A stretch of 64,000 nucleotides of DNA, taken from the NCBI RefSeq assembly GCF_009372235.1, contig NZ_SULL01000015.1:1-64000 (forward strand), in the 5' to 3' direction. The DNA comes from Dickeya oryzae (GTDB lineage: Bacteria; Pseudomonadota; Gammaproteobacteria; Enterobacterales; Enterobacteriaceae). The notes under the pieces were generated by a model. The model ran no database searches. It had not been told where the DNA came from and worked only from the letters and a program-made list of their open reading frames with translations. A program made the position numbers and the translations under genes. This document shows, one piece after another, positions 3,510 to 46,643 of the stretch. Each line of letters opens with the position of its first letter. Position 1 is the first letter of the stretch.

Positions 3510-3797
3510 CTACCAAGCCAGTTGCCGGGAGTGCAGGACTGTTAATTGCACGAATTGAGTATAGTCAATCAGTACAATTGTGGTGGAAATTTGCTCAGAA
3601 AGCCCACGCGCTGCCACATCGTCTTGCAAGGCATACACCGTGGCGCCAGAAGACTGCAGACGTTCGCTAAAGGGCACGCCGCTTAACGCCGCAATCACAC
3701 CATCTTGCAACAGCAAAATAGCGTCATCCGCGCCAACGTTACGCAGCAACGCATCCAGATCGGTATGGTAGGGAGAATGCGCCAAAGTATGCAGCAT
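3510..3797 (-). CDS. tusB: Sulfurtransferase complex subunit TusB
   Basis: TusB is the DsrH-like subunit of the TusBCD complex, which relays persulfide sulfur from TusA to TusE for 2-thiolation of U34 in tRNA. The start at MLHTLAHSPY gives 95 residues, as in E. coli; an ATG five codons upstream was not used. It is the last gene of yheO-tusD-tusC-tusB, 11 bp after tusC. The DsrH family is small and divergent, so context supports the call as much as sequence. Confidence 0.93.
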   Translation of the reverse strand: MLHTLAHSPYHTDLDALLRNVGADDAILLLQDGVIAALSGVPFSERLQSSGATVYALQDDVAARGLSEQISTTIVLIDYTQFVQLTVLHSRQLAW

Positions 3798-3808
3798 GGG
3801 TTCACCGC

Positions 3809-7123: not shown

Positions 7124-7788
7124 AACTATTGATTGTTGAAGATGATACGTTGTTACAAGAAGGGCTAATGCTGGCGATGCGTAATGAAGGGTATGTCTGC
7201 GATTGTGCTTCCACAGCCAAAGAAGCGGATGCCCTCATCAACAGCGCCCAATACAGTCTGGTAGTACTGGATCTGGGTTTACCGGACGAAGACGGCCTCA
7301 CCCTGCTAGGCCGCTGGCGCCGCAACCACTACCAGCAACCGGTGCTCATTCTCACAGCCCGGGATACCGTGGATGATCGCGTCACCGGGCTGGATGTTGG
7401 TGCCGACGACTACATGATAAAGCCCTTTGCATTGAGTGAGTTTCAGGCACGGGTTCGCGCGCTTATTCGCCGCCACCAGGGATCCAGCGACAGCTGGATT
7501 CGGGTAGACAACATCACGCTCGATCTCAACAATCAACAGGTTATGCTGGATGACAAGCCTATTGTGCTGACACCAAAAGAATTCGCCATTCTCTCCCGAC
7601 TTATCCTCAAGGCAGGCACACAGGTACACCGCGAAGTGCTGCATCAGGACTTGTACAGTTGGGACGACGACCCCTCATCGAATTCACTGGAAGTCCACAT
7701 CCATAATCTGCGGCAAAAGATCGGCAAAAATCGCATCAAGACGCTACGCGGTTTCGGCTATCTGCTGACCAAGGATGATCAGCCATGA
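7120..7788 (+). CDS. basR: Response regulator BasR/PmrA
   Basis: This is an OmpR-family response regulator of 222 residues. The receiver domain (about 1-115) has acidic residues in VEDD, the phosphorylated Asp51 in [13 protein letters not shown], and the conserved Lys in YMIKPF. The winged-helix domain (about 125-220) includes [10 protein letters not shown] and ends TLRGFGYLL. It starts at MKLLIVEDD; an ATG five codons upstream lies inside eptA. It overlaps eptA and basS by ATGA junctions, giving a tightly coupled three-gene operon as in the E. coli eptA-basRS arrangement. Regulation of lipid A modification in response to Fe3+ or acid is inferred from the family. Confidence 0.93.
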
Positions 7789-9938: not shown

Positions 9939-10760
9939 ATGTTAAAACCTGGTGCTCTTCTCTGTGCTTCGGCGCTTGCTCTCTCCGTCGGCCTGGCTCA
10001 TGCCGCTACGGAGATCCCCGCTCGCCTGAAGTCCGTGGATAAAATCACCCTGTGCGGCGGCATGGATTCCCCCCCCATCGGCTTTTATGACAGTAACCAA
10101 AAGCTACAAGGCGTAGTCGTGGATTTTGGTAATGAAATCGCCAAACGTTTGGGCGGCAAGAAAGTGGAGTGGAAAGTCATCCCGTTTTCCGGGCTGATTC
10201 CGGCACTGGTTGCCAGTCAGTGCGATATGCTGGCCGACCAGCTCTTTGATAAACCGGCTCGTCGGGAAGTGATCGACATGGTCGACTACATGTATTCCAG
10301 CCAGTCGGTGGTGGTAGCGAAGGGCAACCCGAAAGGGATTCATACACTGGACGATCTTTCAGGTAAGAAAGTCGCGGTGTTAAACGGCTCAACCATCCGC
10401 TCCCTGCTGGAAGACCAGAATAAAACCCTGGTGGCCGCCGGAAAAGCGCCGATGACTATCGTGGTATTCAACACCGATACCGATGCGTTTCAGTCGTTGC
10501 GCATCCAGCAAAGCGATGCCTACGGTACTACGGTGGAAACTGCCGGTTATTACCAATCTCTCGCCCCCAATCTGTTTGAAACCGGCGTACCTGCGTTTGC
10601 CCGCATCCTCACCGGGTTCGGTTTTCGTAAAGACGACAACGCCTTCAGCGGCACGGTGGAACAGATTATCAAGGATATGCAGGTGGATGGCAGTTACCTC
10701 AAGCTGCTGGAAAAATGGCACATCACGGGTGACCGGCTGGATGCCGGCCAATCATCATGA
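9939..10760 (+). CDS. Amino acid ABC transporter, periplasmic binding protein
   Basis: This is a family-3 (polar amino acid type) solute-binding protein of 273 residues. A signal peptide of about 22 residues ends GLAHA, followed by ATEIPARL. The fold is the type II periplasmic binding protein, with VVVDFGNEIAKRLG and KKVAVLNGSTIRSL as typical lobe motifs. The next gene, the permease, overlaps its stop (ATGA), so the genes are co-translated. The substrate is not readable from sequence. The adjacent gamma-glutamyltransferase-like gene suggests a glutamyl compound or derived amino acid. Confidence 0.88.
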   Translation: MLKPGALLCASALALSVGLAHAATEIPARLKSVDKITLCGGMDSPPIGFYDSNQKLQGVVVDFGNEIAKRLGGKKVEWKVIPFSGLIPALVASQCDMLADQLFDKPARREVIDMVDYMYSSQSVVVAKGNPKGIHTLDDLSGKKVAVLNGSTIRSLLEDQNKTLVAAGKAPMTIVVFNTDTDAFQSLRIQQSDAYGTTVETAGYYQSLAPNLFETGVPAFARILTGFGFRKDDNAFSGTVEQIIKDMQVDGSYLKLLEKWHITGDRLDAGQSS

Positions 10761-11548
10761 ATTTCAGTTGGGAGGTGTTCTGGCAGTATCTGCTCAAGCC
10801 TAGCGATGTCTATCTCTATGGGCTATGGCTGACCTGCATTATTGCCGTTTCCGCCATGCTACTTGGCAGCGTGTTGGGGTTGATGGCCGCGTTACTGCGG
10901 CTGTCCGCCAGCCCACTATTGCGCTACCCGGTGGGGTTCTATATCTGGCTGATGCGCGGCACGCCATTACTGGTGCAGATCGTGTTTTTGTATACCGCAC
11001 TGGCGGCAGGCGGCCTGTTCCACTTTCAGGATATCACCCTCGGTTCGCTGGTGATCCCGGGTAATATTCAGGCGGCGATTGTGGCGCTCGGGCTGAACGA
11101 AGGCGCATACATGGCCGAAATCATCCGCTCAGGGTTGGGGGCGGTGGATAAAGGCCAGTATGAGGCGGCCAAATCCCTCGGTATGACATTTCCCAGGCTG
11201 ATGCGCCGCATTATTCTGCCGCAGGCGTTCCGGGTCATCATCCCGTCCATCGGCAATGAGTTTAATGTGATGCTGAAAAACACCACGCTGGTGAGCGTTA
11301 TCGGTGTACAGGAATTGCTGTTAAGCACCCAGATGATTACCTCCGCTACGTTCCGGGTATTTGAACTGTACACCGTAGTAGCCATCTATTTTCTGGTGCT
11401 TACGTCACTGTGGGGACTGTTTCAGTACTGGCTGGAAAAACGCTTCAACCAGCCACACGTGCGTGTCAGCGCATCAAGCCGACTGTTTGGCCGTCAAACG
11501 ATGAGCCTGTTTGGTCGCCAGGCGATGAAAACGTTAAGGGGGCGCTGA
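10757..11548 (+). CDS. Amino acid ABC transporter permease (HisMQ type)
   Basis: This inner-membrane permease (263 residues) of a polar amino acid ABC importer has about five membrane helices. It carries the EAA loop that docks on the ATPase, visible as [20 protein letters not shown]. It overlaps the binding-protein gene by 4 bp and is followed one base later by the ATPase gene. Only one permease gene is present, so a homodimeric channel is likely. The C-terminal extension beyond the last helix (about residues 235-263) is basic and repetitive, with two SLFGRQ/RLFGRQ copies. Confidence 0.88.
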
Positions 11549-11549
11549 T

Positions 11550-12329
11550 ATGTCCTATCACGAAAAAGATATCGTTATTTCCGCCCGGGACATCCACAAG
11601 TCTTTTGGCGACCAACCTATCCTCAAAGGCGTGTCGCTGGATGTCCACCGGGGGGAAGTGGTGGTGCTGATTGGCTCTTCAGGCTCCGGCAAAACCACCT
11701 TCATTCGCTGCATCAACTGCCTTGAAGATATTCAGTCAGGCACCATTCGCATCAATGGTGAGCTGATAGGCTTTCGACAGCGCCCGGACGGTAGCCTGAC
11801 GCGCGATACGGAAACCAATATTGCCCGCCGCCGTCGCGATGTCGGCATGGTGTTTCAGCGCTTCAACCTCTTCCCACACATGACCGTGTTGGAAAACATC
11901 ATTGAAGCGCCGACGCAGGTACTGGGTGTGTCGCGCGAAACTGCGGTAGCCGACGCCTACAACCTGCTGGCTCGCGTCGGTTTGCAGGAAAAAGTGGACT
12001 TCTACCCCTCGCAGTTATCGGGCGGACAACAGCAACGTGTCGCTATCGCACGCTCGCTGGCGATGAAACCACAGGCGATGTTGTTTGACGAACCCACCAG
12101 CGCACTCGACCCGGAAATGGTGGGCGAAGTACTGGCCGTCATGAAAGAGCTGGCTCAGGACGGCATGACCATGGTTATCGTCACCCATGAAATGGGATTT
12201 GCCCGTGAAGTGGCGGACCAGGTGGTCGTGCTCCATCAGGGTGAGCTTATCGAACAGGGTTCACCGGAGCAGGTGTTCAGTCATCCCGTACATCCGCGTA
12301 CCGGTGAATTTCTCAGCCGGGTACGCTGA
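11550..12329 (+). CDS. Amino acid ABC transporter ATP-binding protein
   Basis: This is the cytoplasmic ATPase (259 residues) of the same importer. It has Walker [10 protein letters not shown], signature [16 protein letters not shown], Walker [15 protein letters not shown] and the switch His in [10 protein letters not shown]. It belongs to the HisP/GlnQ group. It starts one base after the permease stop, so all three transporter genes form one operon. It is followed 49 bp later by the gamma-glutamyltransferase-like gene, behind three tandem 14-bp repeats. Confidence 0.92.
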
Positions 12330-12336
12330 CGTTCTT

Positions 12337-12378
12337 GTTAAGAAAATCTCATTAAGGAAATCTCGTTAAGGAAATCCT
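12337..12378 (+). repeat. Three tandem 14-bp repeats carrying the RBS of the next gene
   Basis: Three adjacent 14-mers (12337-12350, 12351-12364, 12365-12378) of the form RTTAAGRAAATCYY end directly at the ATG of the next gene. The second and third contain AAGGA, so the ribosome binding site itself is repeated. Copy number change would add or remove a ribosome binding site without altering the protein. Confidence 0.85.
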
Positions 12379-13989
12379 ATGCTGAACTTTTCCACCCACC
12401 ACTACCCTTATGCGTCACAGCGCCAGTGCGTCTTTGCGAAACGGGGAATGGTCGCCACCTCGCAACCACTGGCTGCTGAGGCCGGTATCGAGATGATTCG
12501 TCGGGGCGGCAATGCTATCGATGCCGCCATCGCCACCGCCGCAGCGCTGACCGTGGTGGAACCCACCGGCTGCGCCATCGGCGGCGATGCTTTCGCGCTG
12601 GTGTGGGTGAAAGACACCCTACACGGGCTGGACGCCAGCGGCTACGCCCCTGCCGCACTCAGTATTGACGCTGTCACCTCACGTGGTCACACCGCCATGC
12701 CGTTGTACGGCTGGGAGCCGGTGACGGTTCCCGGTTGTCCGGCTGCCTGGGCGGAACTGTCACGCCGGTTTGGCACACTGCCGTTTGCCGATTTGCTGCA
12801 ACCGGCCATTCAGCTCGCCCGGGATGGCTTTCCGGTGTCGCCGATGGTGGCCTATCAATGGCAGGAAGCACACCGGCTTTATCAACGCCACCGCCTGCCG
12901 ATTTTTGATGCCTGGTTCGACACCTACCTTCATCACGGTCAGGCCCCGGTTGCCGGCGAACTGTTTCGTAATCCCGCACAGGCGAAGACGTTACAGGAAC
13001 TGGCCGAAACCCAGTGCGAGAGTTTCTACCGGGGCGCTCTGGCGCAACGACTGGCAGACTTCGCCCAGTCCACCGGCGGTTACCTGACGCTGGCGGATTT
13101 GAACCGCTATCAACCTGGCTGGGTAGACCCGATTCGCCTCAACTACCGTGGCTATGACATTTGGGAAATTCCACCCAGCGGCCAGGGGCTGATTGCGCTG
13201 ATGACGCTCAATATTCTACAAGGCTTCAGCTTCGATCAGCGCGACAGCCACCAGACCTGGCACCGCCAGTTAGAAGCATTAAAAATGGCGTATGCCGATG
13301 GCCTGCACTACATCACCGACCCGGAACAGATGCGAACCAGCACCGCCGCGTTATTGTCGCCACGTTACGCGGCACAGCGTCGGGTGGAAATCTCCGAGCA
13401 GGCGCAACCACCACGCCACGGTGACCCACACGCCAGCGGCACCGTCTACCTTGCGACCGCCGATGCCGACGGCAACATGGTGTCGTTCATCCAGAGCGCC
13501 TACCACGGTTTCGGCTCTGGCGTGGTGCTACCCGATAGCGGCATTGGACTGCAAAATCGCGGCTCCGAATTCAGCCTCGATCCTCATCATGTCAATTGCC
13601 TCCAGCCCGGTAAGAAGACCTTCCACACCATCATTCCCGGCTTTATCAGTAAGGATGGTCAGGCGGTGGGGCCATTCGGCGTGATGGGGGGGTACATGCA
13701 ACCACAAGGGCATGTACAAATGGCGATGAACCTGATTGATTTCAATCTGAATCCACAGGCAGCGCTGGATGCGCCACGCTGGCAATGGCTGGGTGGCATG
13801 AAAGTCGGCATTGAGCAAAGCGCCCCGCACGCTCTGGCGTTGAGTCTGCTGCAAGCCGGTCATCAGGTACAAATCGACTGTGATTCTGTCGACTACGGCC
13901 GTGGGCAGATTATCGTGCGTCATCCCACCAGCGGCGTGCTGTGCGGCGGGACAGAGCCGCGTGCCGACTCCAGTATCGCGGTGTACTGA
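12379..13989 (+). CDS. Gamma-glutamyltransferase-family hydrolase
   Basis: This is an Ntn-hydrolase of the gamma-glutamyltranspeptidase family (536 residues). Such enzymes self-cleave before a Thr nucleophile and hydrolyse or transfer gamma-glutamyl groups or related amides. The N-terminal RRGGNAIDAAIATAAALTVVEP motif is seen in part as GGNAIDAA. The likely nucleophile is Thr355 in HASGTVYLATADADGN. The oxyanion region and small subunit end in RADSSIAVY. No signal peptide is present, unlike periplasmic Ggt, so it should be cytoplasmic, as in YwrD-like members. It is downstream of an amino acid importer, suggesting import followed by intracellular cleavage. The substrate is unknown. Confidence 0.87.
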   Translation: MLNFSTHHYPYASQRQCVFAKRGMVATSQPLAAEAGIEMIRRGGNAIDAAIATAAALTVVEPTGCAIGGDAFALVWVKDTLHGLDASGYAPAALSIDAVTSRGHTAMPLYGWEPVTVPGCPAAWAELSRRFGTLPFADLLQPAIQLARDGFPVSPMVAYQWQEAHRLYQRHRLPIFDAWFDTYLHHGQAPVAGELFRNPAQAKTLQELAETQCESFYRGALAQRLADFAQSTGGYLTLADLNRYQPGWVDPIRLNYRGYDIWEIPPSGQGLIALMTLNILQGFSFDQRDSHQTWHRQLEALKMAYADGLHYITDPEQMRTSTAALLSPRYAAQRRVEISEQAQPPRHGDPHASGTVYLATADADGNMVSFIQSAYHGFGSGVVLPDSGIGLQNRGSEFSLDPHHVNCLQPGKKTFHTIIPGFISKDGQAVGPFGVMGGYMQPQGHVQMAMNLIDFNLNPQAALDAPRWQWLGGMKVGIEQSAPHALALSLLQAGHQVQIDCDSVDYGRGQIIVRHPTSGVLCGGTEPRADSSIAVY

Positions 13990-42162: not shown

Positions 42163-42672
42163 GGGAAAATCCTTTATTCAACTCCTGCCAGCGTACATTT
42201 CACAACAATGTACTCCTTCATAAGAACGGGGTTGGCTTATGCACGCTACCGTCTTATTTCAACCGCTACTCCAACCATAAAAACACCTATCCCTATCCCA
42301 ATAATTCGGGTTGCCAAAAACAGCAATACAGCAATTACCCAGGTGTTGACGCAAGTGAATGGCTGGGGGAACCCCATCAATACACACCGGCAACCTGAAA
42401 TGTGATAGCGATATACCCTGTAAAAAAACGTCCTGACGACACCCTGGCAAAATAAAGTAAATCCCTTTACTGTTTTTATTCATTATCACCGCAAACATGG
42501 GATAAAAATAAAATGCTTTCCCTGCAGGCACTCAAACTCAATTCACAACGCCAACATTGGTGATGTGACCGCTACAGTGCATGCCTGTGCTTATCTATAA
42601 TCACCCACCCTCACAACAATCATTCGAGGGTTAATATGGCCTTCATTAAAATATTATTTTCTATGTCTACAA
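42163..42672. other. Intergenic region with a degenerate repeat element
   Basis: These 510 bp between the AAA/AraC regulator and the XRE remnant hold no convincing gene. The only structure seen is the inverted-repeat element at 42288-42415. The flanks are AT-rich, unlike the backbone genes, which fits acquired DNA. Confidence 0.55.
42288..42415. repeat. Degenerate short element with TATACCC/TTGCAGG-type ends
   Basis: The left end (TATCCCAATAATTCGGGTTG around 42293-42312) and the reverse complement of the right end (TATATCGCTATCACATTTCA then GGTTGCCGG, 42387-42415) resemble each other. Both resemble the terminal repeats of the 342-bp element at 51537. It is about 128 bp and looks like a decayed relative without the internal hairpin series. 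The match is imperfect. Confidence 0.5.
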
Positions 42673-43004
42673 TCAGGTCTTATTCGCCTCATTCATAACC
42701 AACATGTTATATATTCCGGCAAAAATAAACGCGATACATTTACACTCATCGTGAGTCACGTCACGAGAAACCCGCTCATGCGAGGGTAAGATGAGGTTGT
42801 CTACCGTGACATCAAAGAATTTCGCGAATTTACACAACGTTTGCCGGGAAATAGGCTTGCCCAACTCAGCTCTTTTTATTGTAGAGATAGAGATATAACA
42901 CTTCGACTCAAGACTTTGCTCCGACAATTCCTCCTGACTTAATTTTTTTTTAGCCTCAGGTCTTTGATCACTGCGGTGTTCAAGAAAAATCCATTGTTAG
43001 ACAT
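42673..43004 (-). pseudogene. XRE-type regulator split at an A9 tract
   Basis: An ATG at 43004 behind AGAGGGG begins MSNNGFFLNTAVIKDLRLKK and then stops after 21 codons, because nine As put the frame on TAA. One more A would continue in frame into SQEELSEQSLESKCYISIST and the rest of a Cro/CI-type helix-turn-helix protein of about 110 residues ending NEANKT. The second part alone can start only at a poor TTG (42927). It may be a pseudogene, a phase-variable or slippage-expressed gene, or a sequencing error in a homopolymer. It lies 273 bp downstream of the peptide gene on the same strand and could be its regulator. Confidence 0.72.
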
Positions 43005-43240
43005 ACATTCCCCTCTGCAATAAAAATTAATACGTTCTTTTTATGGCACTATTTTCATCACACACTTTAAACATCAACCCTCATTTACTGTGGGTTGATA
43101 TTCATGCACATGAATCATGCAGAGCCACAATCGAACCTATTAATTCGTTATGATGTACATTCACCGAACGTCATATCCCCTGATTTTGACAATATAATTA
43201 TTACCGTATTACATCACTGTATTTTTTCTTATTATGAAGA

Positions 43241-43272
43241 AATGGTGCATGGCCATATGGCCATGCACCATT
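43241..43272 (-). terminator. 32-bp perfect palindrome after the peptide gene
   Basis: AATGGTGCATGGCCAT and its exact complement form an uninterrupted 32-bp inverted repeat, 5 bp after the stop of the peptide gene. On the minus strand TTTCTTC follows. It most likely ends the protease-peptide transcript or protects its 3' end. Confidence 0.75.
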
Positions 43273-43277
43273 GTCGA

Positions 43278-43427
43278 TTAGCTCAGTACGCCGCTCAGCG
43301 CGCCCTGGCCTGCTTTTTTCAGCAGATTCAGTGCTTCACCCCAGAAAGCCGGGTTAACGCCAGAGGCTTTGGCTTCAGCAACACGGTTAGCGCGGTTCAC
43401 ATTCTGTGCTTGGGTTGGAAGTTTCAT
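43278..43427 (-). CDS. Putative RiPP-type precursor peptide (49 residues)
   Basis: This small gene, 106 bp after the PatG-like protease on the same strand, has AAGGAG seven bases before ATG and a TAA stop. The 49-residue product begins MKLPTQAQNVNR, has a middle AEAKASGVNPAFWGEA and ends KKAGQGALSGVLS. It lacks Cys, so disulfides, lanthionines and thiazolines are excluded. The C-terminal 21 residues (from Trp29) could form an amphipathic helix with Lys-Lys at 37-38. The polar N-terminus and glycine-rich end look like a leader and core, but no cyanobactin recognition motif is seen. Its role as protease substrate is inferred from gene order. It could alternatively be an antimicrobial or a signal peptide acting unmodified. 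Confidence 0.75.
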   Translation of the reverse strand: MKLPTQAQNVNRANRVAEAKASGVNPAFWGEALNLLKKAGQGALSGVLS

Positions 43428-43533
43428 GGTATTTCTCCTTGAGTGTATTTACATCGTATTTTGGGGATATCCCCAGGTTAATGCCCCCGACTGGCGGCAA
43501 ATCTTAAAACCGAGAACAAACGGCAAGCCGGTA

Positions 43534-45498
43534 TTAATAGGCATGCCAGCTACGCAGCGTGCCGATGGTGACCGGCATGACATCGCTGACGTCAATGGTG
43601 TAGCGATACAGTTTGCGGGCAGCGGTAAGGCGTTCTTTCGGGTTGAAGAACTCCAGTACCACGTCCCAGCAATCGGATTCCGGGCGGCTGACCGGGCTGC
43701 GCTCTGCGCTGATTTTGTTCAGGAATAACCCTTCAGCGAAGGCATCATCGAAGATTTCTTTCATCTGATACGCGTTGGTGGCCGCATAGTTAATCGCACG
43801 CTCATTCGACTCGTAACCACGGTTACGCAGCTCGTAGTAAATACGGTTGATGAAGTTGATCAGCTCTTTGGATTTCGGCGTACCGACGGCGCTTTCGCCC
43901 ATCAGCATTTTCGAAATATCCTGGGATTCCCAGTTGAACATGCCGCGTAATACCGGGCTGATGGTCGGAATCACCTGGCCGTTGAACAGCCGCGTTTCAC
44001 CGCTGATAATCCCGGCGATGGAAACACGTTCCACGCCTTTGGTTTCCTGCTCATACAGGAACTCCACCAGACGGGCGTATTCCAGCACCGCGAACTGTGC
44101 ATCCGGTTTAATGGCGTACACCGGAATACCGTCGATTTTTAATGTCCAGATCAACGCGTTGGATTGCTCCGCGTTATCGCCGGTATTCAAATGTTCGGCC
44201 ATTTGCACCGGATCAAACGGATAGCCGCTTTTATTACCCATGACCTGGGTGAAGTAATCCAACCGTGCTTCTGTACCGAAGTCATAGCCAACCTGGCCGA
44301 TAACAAAAATCTTTTCCTGATCACGCACTGTGCGCGCATCCAGCGCAGAAGACTGCGGCATAATCCGCCGGGCAGGCGCATGCACATAATGGTTGGCCGC
44401 CGGGTCGCTGATTTTGGGGAACGCCAGGCCAGCGTCACGCGATGGCGCACTCACTTCGGTACTCAGGCTGGAAGGCGCCAGTACAGCATCATCGCCCAAC
44501 GCCACATCCTGACTCTCCTGATGGGTGTCGATAATCGAGGGAACCAGCAGCTCCACAGCGGCAGGCTCAATATTTTTTTCTTCAGTTGACATGGTCATGA
44601 TCCTTTTGGGTGGTTGGTGAGAGAATTCCTGTGCTATTTGCCGGAATACTTTCTGAATATTTAATCGGTATATCACTGACTCCCGATTAGCTGCCGTTGA
44701 CAACACCAGTGGGGTCGCTGTAGTAAACAGCAGCTCCCGAATAATTTGTGGCGCACGACAATGCCCCGCCACATTTACTGCCCTCATGATTAACGCCGAT
44801 ATTGCCGACACCACCGGGGCAGAAAAACTGCTGCCAGATACAACAGACAGATCATAATTCGGCGTAGCAACAGGAATGGATACACCGGATGCCAGCAACA
44901 TTTTCTTTCTCAGTTTCAACCCATAGTTATTAAATGGAGCGGGCAACCCTTCTTTATCACAGGCACCAACAGCCAGAACAAAATCCATTGATGCCGGCAA
45001 GGATTCACTATTACGGCCTTCATTACCGACAGCGGCAACAATCAACACGCCTTCTTTTTCACAATCGTCAATGGCTTTACGTAATTCATCCGTTCCCTGG
45101 CCATTTATCGATAATGATGCACCACTCACGTTAATAATATGACAGCCATGTAAACGGGCATCACGAATCGCTTTTGCCAGGGTGCGTTCAGAGCAGCCAT
45201 GAATATTCCCCCTTTCATCCTCATGAAATACCGGGATACTCAAAACAGTGACGGCCGGAGCAATACCCACACCTTTTCCGCCAATAATACTACTGACAGC
45301 CGTTCCGTGTGAGGTCGTTTTATTTTGCTGTGCAGTCAGGTGTTCAATGGTTAAATGGTTTAATATCGGGTGATGACTATCAATCGCACCATCAATAATA
45401 CCGATTTTCACTCCCTCTCCATTTACCCCTAATTGCTGCAATCCCGACAGTGGATTATCAACGAATACATCACGAGTGTTCGACGAGTGCATCATCAT
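43534..45498 (-). CDS. Subtilisin fused to PatG-like C-terminal domain
   Basis: This 654-residue protein has two domains. Residues about 10-285 are a subtilase of the PatA/PatG type, with Asp36 in KIGIIDGAIDSHHP, His64 in TTSHGTAVSS, oxyanion Asn159 in AAVGNEG and Ser224 in SGSSFSAP. No secretion signal is seen, so it should be cytoplasmic. A linker (about 286-395) is followed by a domain like the C-terminal part of cyanobactin PatG: IFVIGQVGYDFGTEARLDYF, ALIWTLKIDGIPVYAIKP, RVSIAGIISGETRLFNGQV and YYELRNRGYESNERAINYAA. Cyanobactin enzymes of this type cleave and macrocyclise precursor peptides. A 49-residue peptide gene follows. An internal start with its own ribosome binding site lies in the linker. 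The first three codons are all ATG. Confidence 0.86.
   Translation of the reverse strand: MMMHSSNTRDVFVDNPLSGLQQLGVNGEGVKIGIIDGAIDSHHPILNHLTIEHLTAQQNKTTSHGTAVSSIIGGKGVGIAPAVTVLSIPVFHEDERGNIHGCSERTLAKAIRDARLHGCHIINVSGASLSINGQGTDELRKAIDDCEKEGVLIVAAVGNEGRNSESLPASMDFVLAVGACDKEGLPAPFNNYGLKLRKKMLLASGVSIPVATPNYDLSVVSGSSFSAPVVSAISALIMRAVNVAGHCRAPQIIRELLFTTATPLVLSTAANRESVIYRLNIQKVFRQIAQEFSHQPPKRIMTMSTEEKNIEPAAVELLVPSIIDTHQESQDVALGDDAVLAPSSLSTEVSAPSRDAGLAFPKISDPAANHYVHAPARRIMPQSSALDARTVRDQEKIFVIGQVGYDFGTEARLDYFTQVMGNKSGYPFDPVQMAEHLNTGDNAEQSNALIWTLKIDGIPVYAIKPDAQFAVLEYARLVEFLYEQETKGVERVSIAGIISGETRLFNGQVIPTISPVLRGMFNWESQDISKMLMGESAVGTPKSKELINFINRIYYELRNRGYESNERAINYAATNAYQMKEIFDDAFAEGLFLNKISAERSPVSRPESDCWDVVLEFFNPKERLTAARKLYRYTIDVSDVMPVTIGTLRSWHAY
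44590..44606 (-). promoter_or_regulatory. Internal ribosome binding site and ATG in the protease linker
   Basis: Within the protease gene AAGGA (44602-44606) lies about nine bases before the ATG of codon 303 (44590-44592). It would yield a separate 352-residue protein beginning MSTEEKNIEP and containing only the PatG-like domain. Codon 301 is also ATG. The strength and spacing are those of a genuine start. Confidence 0.55.
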
Positions 45499-46016
45499 TC
45501 TCTTTCCTGAATGTGGAATGTAAAATCCCCGGTGTTTTCAGACCATTTCTAGTCGCAAGAGAATAACAACCGCTACTATTGCATGAATGATAACCATGCT
45601 GTCCGGTTATATTTTCTTTCACTCTGAAACTGGCGTAGTACTTTCACACAGCAAACACGACTATCGCACCAGACTATCGCAATAAATATTATCGCCACTG
45701 ATGATTTAAACGACCTGCGATGTGTCATTTATTTATCCTGAACGAATAAATTCATACTAACCTTACTTAAAAAATATTTTGGTATCACTTTAGTATCAGT
45801 TTTATCAGCTTAAGGTAACTCAATAGGTTACCCATAATCGCCCAATAAAATACTGAAATCTTATTGAACAAAAAAACCATTTTAAAAACGGTCGTTAACA
45901 CTGTTACGGCAAATATCGGTTCCAGATGAACCGGCACCACATTTCATAGCCGACCTGGCCTCTGGCACCGGTATTGTCCGCATGTCATCATATTTATCAG
46001 TTAAAAACACATTTAA
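45499..46016. other. AT-rich region upstream of the protease operon
   Basis: These 518 bp lie between the GH19 gene and the protease gene, both on the minus strand, so they should contain the protease promoter. The base composition is clearly more AT-rich than the backbone. AGGAAAGAGA precedes the protease ATG. A 19-codon hydrophobic frame (about 45538-45597) has no good ribosome binding site. No other gene is seen. Confidence 0.55.
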
Positions 46017-46030
46017 TCAGTTAAAAACGC
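45991..46030. repeat. 20-bp tandem duplication over the GH19 stop codon
   Basis: Two adjacent 20-mers (45991-46010, 46011-46030) share ATCAGTTAAAAAC and differ at four or five positions. The right copy contains the last codons and stop of the GH19 gene; the left copy repeats them downstream. Confidence 0.75.
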
Positions 46031-46643
46031 GTTTAGCCTTCGCCAGATAGTTTTTACGATCAACCAGGCCATTCAAGCCGCCATTAATCCTACGTGTGAT
46101 CCCGTTGATATCATCCTGATCGGCCAACTCGTTGAGACCGTTCTTTTTCCAAAACCAAATTGCCGCCGCCACCGAAACGTCCGGATTTTGGCTAATCAAG
46201 TCAGGATTGGTCACCAAATCCTGTCCAATAGCGCTGCCACAGGCACGATAGTTATCCCGTCCCGTCAGTTGAATCAGCCCACGGCCGCGATACTTCCAGC
46301 CATCGCCGGTTTGCGTCGCGCCATTACCCAGTCGGTTGGCATAAACAATATTGGCGATGGCTTCGGGGTTGCGTTCACACTGTGCGGCCATCTCATCCGT
46401 GGTGAAATAGCGCCCGAACACCGAGCGCAGCCCTTTAGCGCTGTAATTCAGGTTCTCCACCCGGGCGCGCAATTCATTGCTCTCATGCGCAATCTGGGCA
46501 ATAAAATGCGCAAAACGCAAAGGTGTGTCGATCTGCGCCGCGTTGCATTCCTGCTGTAACGCCGGCTGGAATTGCGCGAGATCGTCAGCACCTGCGGCCG
46601 TCATTACCTTTTTTAACTTTTCCTGACTAATTTCAAGAGTCAT
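46017..46643 (-). CDS. GH19-family endolysin-like lysozyme
   Basis: This is a glycoside hydrolase family 19 (chitinase/phage endolysin type) protein of 208 residues, preceded by GGAGGAAAC. The catalytic region includes FIAQIAHESNELRARVENL, whose Glu in AHESNE is the expected acid. YRGRGLIQLTGRDNYRACG is the family signature, and RRINGGLNGLVDRKNYLAKA ends the fold. There is no signal peptide and no holin or spanin neighbour. Phage endolysins of this family cut peptidoglycan, and plant-type relatives cut chitin. It may be a prophage remnant, a lysis factor for the adjacent peptide locus, or an antibacterial effector. Confidence 0.87.
   Translation of the reverse strand: MTLEISQEKLKKVMTAAGADDLAQFQPALQQECNAAQIDTPLRFAHFIAQIAHESNELRARVENLNYSAKGLRSVFGRYFTTDEMAAQCERNPEAIANIVYANRLGNGATQTGDGWKYRGRGLIQLTGRDNYRACGSAIGQDLVTNPDLISQNPDVSVAAAIWFWKKNGLNELADQDDINGITRRINGGLNGLVDRKNYLAKAKRVFN

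Follow-up and report, generated by a model that had tools for sequence, protein, structure and literature searches.

Introduction

In cyanobactin biosynthesis, the leader of the precursor peptide carries the motif KKNxxPxxxxPVxR (PMC3428304), cleavage by PatA-like enzymes takes place behind G(L/V)E(A/P)S (PMC10885120), and PatA also bears the C-terminal domain of unknown function (DUF) that PatG has (PMC4259220). According to a 2015 review, cyanobactin clusters had until then been identified only in cyanobacteria (PMC4663559). Genome papers on Dickeya list a cyanobactin cluster recognized by antiSMASH (PMC6329079, PMC8386352, PMC8864124, PMC7356628, PMC10319131, PMC11231085), with cytotoxicity attached to it in two of them. 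The subject of this work is a two-gene locus of Dickeya oryzae, a subtilisin-like protease gene followed by the gene of a 49-residue peptide, located in a stretch of 64,000 nucleotides (positions 1 to 64,000 of contig NZ_SULL01000015.1, assembly GCF_009372235.1), hereafter the window. As judged from the sequence, this pair probably comprises a stand-alone PatA-type leader protease and its own precursor, which would be cut after the motif GVNPA to release a linear peptide.

The locus resembles the PatA/PatG/PatE system in having a PatA-type protease with the same C-terminal DUF, a precursor N-terminus (block 1) that partly fits the PxxxxPVxR part of the leader motif, a proline being replaced by asparagine (PMC3428304), and a second motif, GVNPA (block 2), similar to the PatA site (PMC10885120). 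It differs in lacking a PatG macrocyclase, a C-terminal recognition sequence and a nearby heterocyclase, and in its predicted linear product; in addition, no B gene was seen in the window, where the leader scan found no second small open reading frame (ORF) with both blocks. The piricyclamide cluster also has no PatD heterocyclase, but the C-terminal protease G is retained there, and the products are cyclic peptides that are sometimes geranylated (PMC3428304). Likewise, the lantibiotic leader protease NisP is an S8 subtilisin removing the leader from a dedicated precursor (PMC10885120), with the difference that lantibiotic substrates are heavily modified. No prior description of the Dickeya pair was found in a literature search that covered mostly papers free of subscription, nor was any mention of the 49-residue peptide found in the accessible parts of the papers listing the cyanobactin cluster.

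The protease

A prediction made earlier from the letters of this DNA, hereafter the original prediction, described a subtilisin with intact triad fused to a domain resembling the C-terminal part of PatG, followed by a small peptide gene. The coordinates, strand and spacing of the two genes were correct (Table 1), and the domain assignment was confirmed, as the Pfam domains of the protein are Peptidase_S8, PatG_D and PatG_C, the last two forming the cyanobactin DUF. The residues D36, H64, N159 and S224 are unchanged across ten aligned sequences of the window protease and its relatives. The protein scores 465.6 bits with the NCBIfam model TIGR03895 (cut-off 421.05), which places it in the PatA/PatG family, and its nearest named relative found is that of Dickeya undicola (88% over the protease).

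Regarding the S8 domain, the solved PatA-type proteases (Protein Data Bank codes 4h6w, 3zxx, 4h6v and 3zxy) are matched from residue 21–30 to 285–286, with a best E of 1.5e-36, against 3.4e-19 for the PatG macrocyclase 4h6x, which is aligned over residues 69–264 alone; a full-length match to the macrocyclase domain is thus lacking, as the alignment begins at query residue 69. For the C-terminal part, the match is to the PatG DUF, solved as 4uvq (E 1.3e-47). Because the S8 domain fits the PatA structures nearly end to end and PatG far more weakly, and because PatA has the DUF too, the enzyme is best named a solo PatA-type protease, sharing with PatG the C-terminal domain. The name "PatG-like protease" in the original prediction consequently holds for the DUF and fails for the macrocyclase. 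With PatA proteases as its closest solved relatives and its catalytic residues kept, the enzyme has the features of a PatA-type leader protease, and the pair of A and G proteases of a cyanobactin cluster was not found in the window genome, where a whole-genome search at E≤0.001 gave one match to the protease. NisP-type lantibiotic proteases are not known to have a PatG-type DUF.

The precursor peptide

On the available sequences, the 49-codon frame is a real gene under purifying selection. Among six distinct Dickeya sequences, the variable sites at codon positions 1, 2 and 3 number 6, 4 and 30, and the comparison with Yersinia frederiksenii gives a dN of 0.168 and a dS of 1.71. Amino-acid changes as few as those observed occurred in at most 1.7% of random-placement trials in each of five comparisons. 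The substitution pattern of an unselected frame, which would have refuted the original prediction, is thus not seen. A chance ORF is ruled out by this pattern together with the match to a profile of non-enteric peptides, described below. The peptide is present in eight of nine Dickeya genomes; the exception, G003 (loci and genomes are given L and G numbers where needed), retains a 68-residue protease remnant. Scans of the peptides against Pfam and NCBIfam gave nothing above a cut-off. The strong ribosome binding site, the palindrome and the absence of cysteine noticed originally were all verified.

A two-block leader shared across phyla

Proteases followed by small ORFs with a similar leader are seen in Yersinia, Enterobacter, Vibrio, Thiotrichaceae, Ancylobacter, Acidobacteriota, cyanobacteria and Streptomyces. 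In 20 aligned peptides from outside the enteric bacteria and Vibrio, the Q and R of block 1 are invariant and the P nearly so, the typical form being MxLPxQxxPVxR; block 2, typically GVxP(S/A) or GVEA, stands some 8–14 residues further on. Several relatives have a block 2 that fits the PatA site (GVEPS, GIEPS), and others one that fits it partly (GVEA, GVQPS, GVLPS); for the Dickeya GVNPA, the fit is loose.

A profile built from these 20 peptides (A3) was applied to the 4.59-Mb Dickeya genome, where the 49-residue peptide itself was the single match at E≤10 (E 1.9e-5; 150 of 163 first-look candidates scored). With a position matrix of 17 such leaders, the same peptide ranks first of 2174 ORFs over 204 kb, scoring 29.1 against 20.4 for the next. 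When the scan was repeated leaving one group out at a time, an ORF with both blocks was found on the same strand and at most 2.5 kb downstream of the protease in 23 of 30 loci, which are not independent, eight of the positive ones being from Dickeya and four from Streptomyces. Here, L006 is the same contig as the D. undicola locus L027 and was counted once, and L032 and L037/G089 are one contig; protease ends are approximate for L070 and L038–L040, and the proteases of L034 and L029 were read from the match start, with the start codon unchecked.

Regarding the loci outside the 23, L044 is a true cyanobactin cluster in Gloeothece, whose PatB hit (21.3) lies 2507 nt beyond the protease; in L047, the protease is cut by the start of the record and the peptide MLLPKQLKPIKR scores below the threshold; L038–L040 have S8 and DUF in separate genes and a different leader; and L035 and L036 match in the S8 part only, with nothing downstream, L035 having one stray hit (18.4) elsewhere. 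Above-threshold hits beyond the 2.5-kb zone are three in L033, upstream in the same cluster, one in L070, overlapping the protease end, and two in the Streptomyces locus L068, on the opposite strand and 4.2–4.5 kb off.

A further leader profile (A4), applied to 369 class genomes with at most 16 candidates scored per genome, gave strong hits (E<1e-9) only in G000 and G089, two of the six genomes with PatG_C, both of which have a full-length protease and supplied training rows, so that these co-occurrence figures are informative on the negative side only. The non-Dickeya training peptides had been selected by their motif and their position next to a protease, which leaves the Dickeya test and the left-out-group scan as the only results free of circularity. 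Taken on these terms, the protease/peptide pairing and the leader grammar are well supported.

The Dickeya peptide has no match to the cyanobactin precursor family TIGR03678, and one of nine relatives' peptides, from Thiotrichaceae, matches it weakly at residues 3–15 (E 0.09, far below the cut-off). Among ten peptides scanned, one from Acidobacteriota matches the PatB family TIGR04220 at residues 1–12 (E 0.1, far below the cut-off). PatB of the Gloeothece cluster (130 bits with TIGR04220, the PatB/AcyB/McaB family) begins with MRLPKLAPPVKR, which is close to block 1; it differs from the Dickeya peptide in sitting in a full cyanobactin cluster, and no cleavage block is established for PatB.

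Distribution of the pair and its relatives

The original prediction regarded the system as that of a soft-rot enterobacterium and made it depend on finding the peptide beside other proteobacterial proteases. The peptide is indeed found there, and the restriction does not hold, since relatives occur in several phyla. The same Cys-free peptide is present in Yersinia (two), Enterobacter (one) and Vibrio penaeicida (one locus with two copies), with GVNPAFW and LKKAG invariant among seven aligned enteric and Vibrio peptides, and the proteases of Dickeya, Yersinia, Enterobacter and Vibrio form one clade (100/100) in a midpoint-rooted tree of 20. Farther relatives are found in Thiotrichaceae, Ancylobacter, the proteobacterium G726, Acidobacteriota, cyanobacterial plasmids and Streptomyces plasmids, with one to several adjoining small ORFs that are mostly Cys-rich, except in Streptomyces, where GVEA or GIEPS is followed by short hydrophobic tails. 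All nine of the farther relatives' proteases scanned pass TIGR03895.

PatG_C is rare: with the window genome counted both times, it occurs in 6 of the 369 class genomes and in 2 of the 398 genomes at phylum level. In a collection of 84,980 species, a scan restricted to two peptide patterns found 10 loci, eight of them matching beyond the S8 part. Phage records gave S8-domain matches alone (12 records, query 24–238), and among the best 40 of 43 plasmid records, those of Sinorhizobium, Pararhizobium, Paenibacillus, Tolypothrix and Microchaete match in the S8 part only.

Other arrangements were observed among these loci. A second leader type, MxxPxFxAxxSL, belongs to mostly Cys-rich peptides near PatG_D/PatG_C genes in L038–L041; its profile matches in 4 of the 369 class genomes, all four with PatG_C, the profile having been built from those genomes and at most 16 candidates scored in each, so that this co-occurrence, too, tells only on the negative side. 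The Acidobacteriota cluster L033 (50–6356) holds two PatG-DUF-only genes, four block-1 peptides and one protease-DUF gene, with a further candidate DUF-like stretch at the locus edge, and its peptide at 3605–3799 shares, as judged by eye, a PCDGC...LNRW region with the proteobacterial ORF at 693–893 of L024. Within the Gloeothece cluster (L044), a gene at 10053–12452 has the DUF fused to methyltransferase domains and no protease domain; a candidate for its precursor is the nearby ORF at 7306–7551, which contains the motifs LSEEEL and GVTPS. A Nostoc plasmid gene annotated as a DNA methyltransferase (L046, 7245–8801) ends in PatG_D and PatG_C. On the Streptomyces plasmids L066–L069, a BTAD regulator and an S8-DUF protease are accompanied by arrays that comprise three to six annotated small ORFs; the short hydrophobic tails after GVEA in several of these may resemble frog temporins.

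Heterocyclase and recognition of the leader

As stated in the original prediction, no YcaO, LanB/LanC, radical SAM, methyltransferase or exporter gene is nearby: none was found in the Pfam scan of nine neighbouring ORFs, eight with matches and one without. The only YcaO match of the window genome sits on another contig. YcaO (PF02624) is absent from 10 of the 16 solo-protease genomes or plasmid records searched, namely three whole genomes (G726, Thiotrichaceae and Ancylobacter, two of them draft or metagenome-assembled genomes) and seven whole plasmids, for which the search covered the plasmid sequence. In five others (Dickeya, two Yersinia, Enterobacter and Vibrio), it lies away from the locus, either on a different contig or at a distance of 85 kb or more, and the Acidobacteriota metagenome-assembled genome has three, two of them possibly on the locus contig outside the stretch examined. 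In the true cyanobactin plasmid of Gloeothece, YcaO is inside the cluster.

Because block 1 persists without YcaO, the protease/DUF module is its likelier reader. Stand-alone DUF genes also accompany such peptides (two were scanned in L033), and in Gloeothece the DUF is joined to methyltransferase domains, as would fit a substrate-docking module. Tentatively, and with a chance that we put below even, these loci may represent a cross-phylum peptide class matured solely by the PatA-type protease/DUF module, in which the P-x-x-x-x-P-V-x-R block would be the docking signal for this module, not for the heterocyclase, and PatB itself would be a substrate.

Predicted product and alternative explanations

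In the proposed mechanism, the protease (its S8 domain, with or without the C-terminal DUF) would recognize the N-terminal block MxLPxQxxxVxR and cut after GVNPA, yielding a linear, otherwise unmodified, amphipathic peptide of about 22 residues, for which macrocyclization is not expected. This agrees with the reduced system of ribosomally synthesized and post-translationally modified peptide type that had been predicted, as a protease with a dedicated precursor and conserved leader would leave proteolysis as the sole visible maturation step. The helical hydrophobic moment of the core FWGEALNLLKKAGQGALSGVLS is above that of its shuffles (p 0.0065), with p 0.002–0.017 across the seven enteric/Vibrio cores tried and p 0.012–0.040 for five Streptomyces tails, these p-values being modest, uncorrected and obtained with cut points chosen by the analyst; two leaders tested are not above their shuffles (p 0.35 and 0.65). 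The C-terminal half can therefore form the amphipathic helix anticipated from the sequence. A membrane-active or antimicrobial function of the core is conceivable and, more speculatively, the released peptide would be membrane-active or secreted and used in competition.

Several points weigh against this interpretation. The charge of the core is just +1, and no obvious exporter or immunity gene is found among the nine neighbouring ORFs compared with Pfam. Dickeya block 1 reads NVNR, with N where P is usual, and in its block 2 the E and S of the classic PatA site are replaced by N and A; among the 17 relatives' leaders that make up the matrix, 12 have a block 2 starting with G. Four weak hits of profile A4 (7.5e-4 to 8.3e-3) fall in genomes without PatG_C, about the number expected by chance at E≤0.01 over 369 genomes. 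The Nostoc protease of L065 probably lacks the whole DUF, as it is annotated at 458 residues. Moreover, it is doubtful whether the DUF of PatG could recognize the precursor by itself, because the isolated PatG-DUF did not bind the full precursor PatE' in nuclear magnetic resonance titrations (PMC4259220).

A different role, which we regard as unlikely, would be that of a signal, or of a pair controlling the adjacent helix-turn-helix (HTH) regulator, with a product acting in the cell or as a pheromone and not as a weapon. An HTH gene follows the peptide in all eight Dickeya loci with the pair, in two Yersinia and in one Enterobacter, and a BTAD-type regulator stands beside the protease in the four Streptomyces loci examined; however, no such HTH gene was found at the Vibrio locus, the HTH protein is small and has no other Pfam domain, and the tails of the relatives are diverse and often Cys-rich.

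Bacterial gasdermins are activated by proteases, and by analogy the leader could silence a membrane-disrupting tail until the protease is triggered, making the pair a conditional self-killing or anti-phage device. The two-gene composition of protease and amphipathic tail and the patchy distribution would suit it, and there are PADLOC matches to the S8 domain (subtilase, 2.3e-17; IetS, 9.9e-9) and a regulator half (HTH_VI, 3.9e-4). Since these matches are limited to generic S8 and HTH parts, the score with IteS, the anti-phage S8 model of NCBIfam, is 22.6 (cut-off 900), and the relationship to cyanobactin precursors speaks for a product that is released, such a device is decidedly improbable.

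Even less credit is given to a true cyanobactin-type pathway, where the protease would also macrocyclize the peptide, as the antiSMASH label would imply. Such a pathway would account for the TIGR03895 score and for the cluster listed in the Dickeya papers, but it disagrees with the PatA-like S8 domain, with the single protease of this kind in the genome and with the window having no other two-block small ORF. In addition, 13 enteric/Vibrio sequences end with the conserved tail or with a single residue after it (a G in L007 and L008), and among them no AYDG-like recognition sequence after the core was found, so that a C-terminal macrocyclization signal of known kind is missing. The macrocyclization considered in the original prediction is accordingly rejected. 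Finally, that the small gene encodes an unrelated peptide merely adjoining the protease, a reading open to the extent that their link is drawn from sequence, is hardly credible given the co-presence in Dickeya, the match to the non-enteric profile, the purifying selection and the 23 of 30 loci with a two-block ORF.

Features of the locus and neighbouring genes

Table 1. Positions in the window of the genes, leader blocks and signals of the protease/peptide locus
Feature	Position	Strand	Description
Protease gene	43534..45498	-	654 aa, solo PatA-type; S8 subtilisin aa 27-264, PatG_D 396-496, PatG_C 545-651
Precursor peptide gene	43278..43427	-	49 aa/49 codons; 106 bp downstream of the protease, same strand
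Peptide ribosome binding site	43434..43440	-	AAGGAGA, 6 nt upstream of ATG
Leader block 1	43392..43427	-	MKLPTQAQNVNR; usual family form MxLPxQxxPVxR
Leader block 2	43347..43361	-	GVNPA; aligns with GVxP(S/A) of relatives; predicted cut follows the block
Predicted core	43281..43346	-	FWGEALNLLKKAGQGALSGVLS; from conservation and amphipathicity; putative start
Perfect 30-nt palindrome	43242..43271	-	Directly after the peptide stop
HTH regulator, first half	42939..43004	-	Small XRE-type; short ORF ending just past the A-run
Run of nine A (minus strand)	42943..42951	-	Junction of the regulator halves, which are in different frames
HTH regulator, second half	42673..42942	-	HTH_3 from profile position 11 on, 22.2 bits against a cut-off of 23

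The RNA fold of 121 nt around the palindrome has a z of -4.4, and a hairpin is found at the same position in all ten loci folded (seven Dickeya, two Yersinia and one Enterobacter; the Dickeya locus L005 was left out), with compensatory changes, as judged by eye. The corresponding region of the two Vibrio copies differs from the enteric one. An Rfam scan of positions 42500–46000 gave no match.

The HTH regulator, for which no counterpart was found at the Vibrio, Thiotrichaceae and Ancylobacter loci, is split at the A-run, and the second-half frame lacks the first part of the HTH domain, because its HTH_3 match begins only within the profile. Comparing the window with L002–L008, L028, L029 and L030, the run is A9 in ten of the 11 loci and A8 in one Dickeya (L008), and the frames of the halves meet there in all 11, from three genera. 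Both halves vary mostly at third codon positions in seven Dickeya (6/1/9 and 13/6/38 for positions 1/2/3). The run thus looks like a candidate programmed slippage site.

Two pectate lyase genes are close to the locus. A gene similar to GH19 chitinases/lysozymes (46017–46643, minus strand) adjoins the protease and is found in all eight Dickeya loci with the pair (the window and L002–L008); no credible match to it was found in the 16-kb stretch of G003 without an intact pair.

Implications

The "cyanobactin cluster" of the Dickeya papers is likely the locus of the window, a correspondence inferred because it holds the only such protease found in the genome, and not matched by coordinates. If so, the label misleads, as the likely product is a linear 22-mer. 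Overlooked precursor genes are also indicated in Streptomyces, cyanobacteria and Proteobacteria, including unannotated ones such as a Gloeocapsa ORF in L045. Moreover, the locus offers a heterocyclase-free setting in which to identify what reads the conserved leader motif of cyanobactins and what the PatA/PatG DUF does. The pair would represent cyanobactin-type maturation pared down to the cleavage of the leader, in a form that is conserved and more widespread than first thought.

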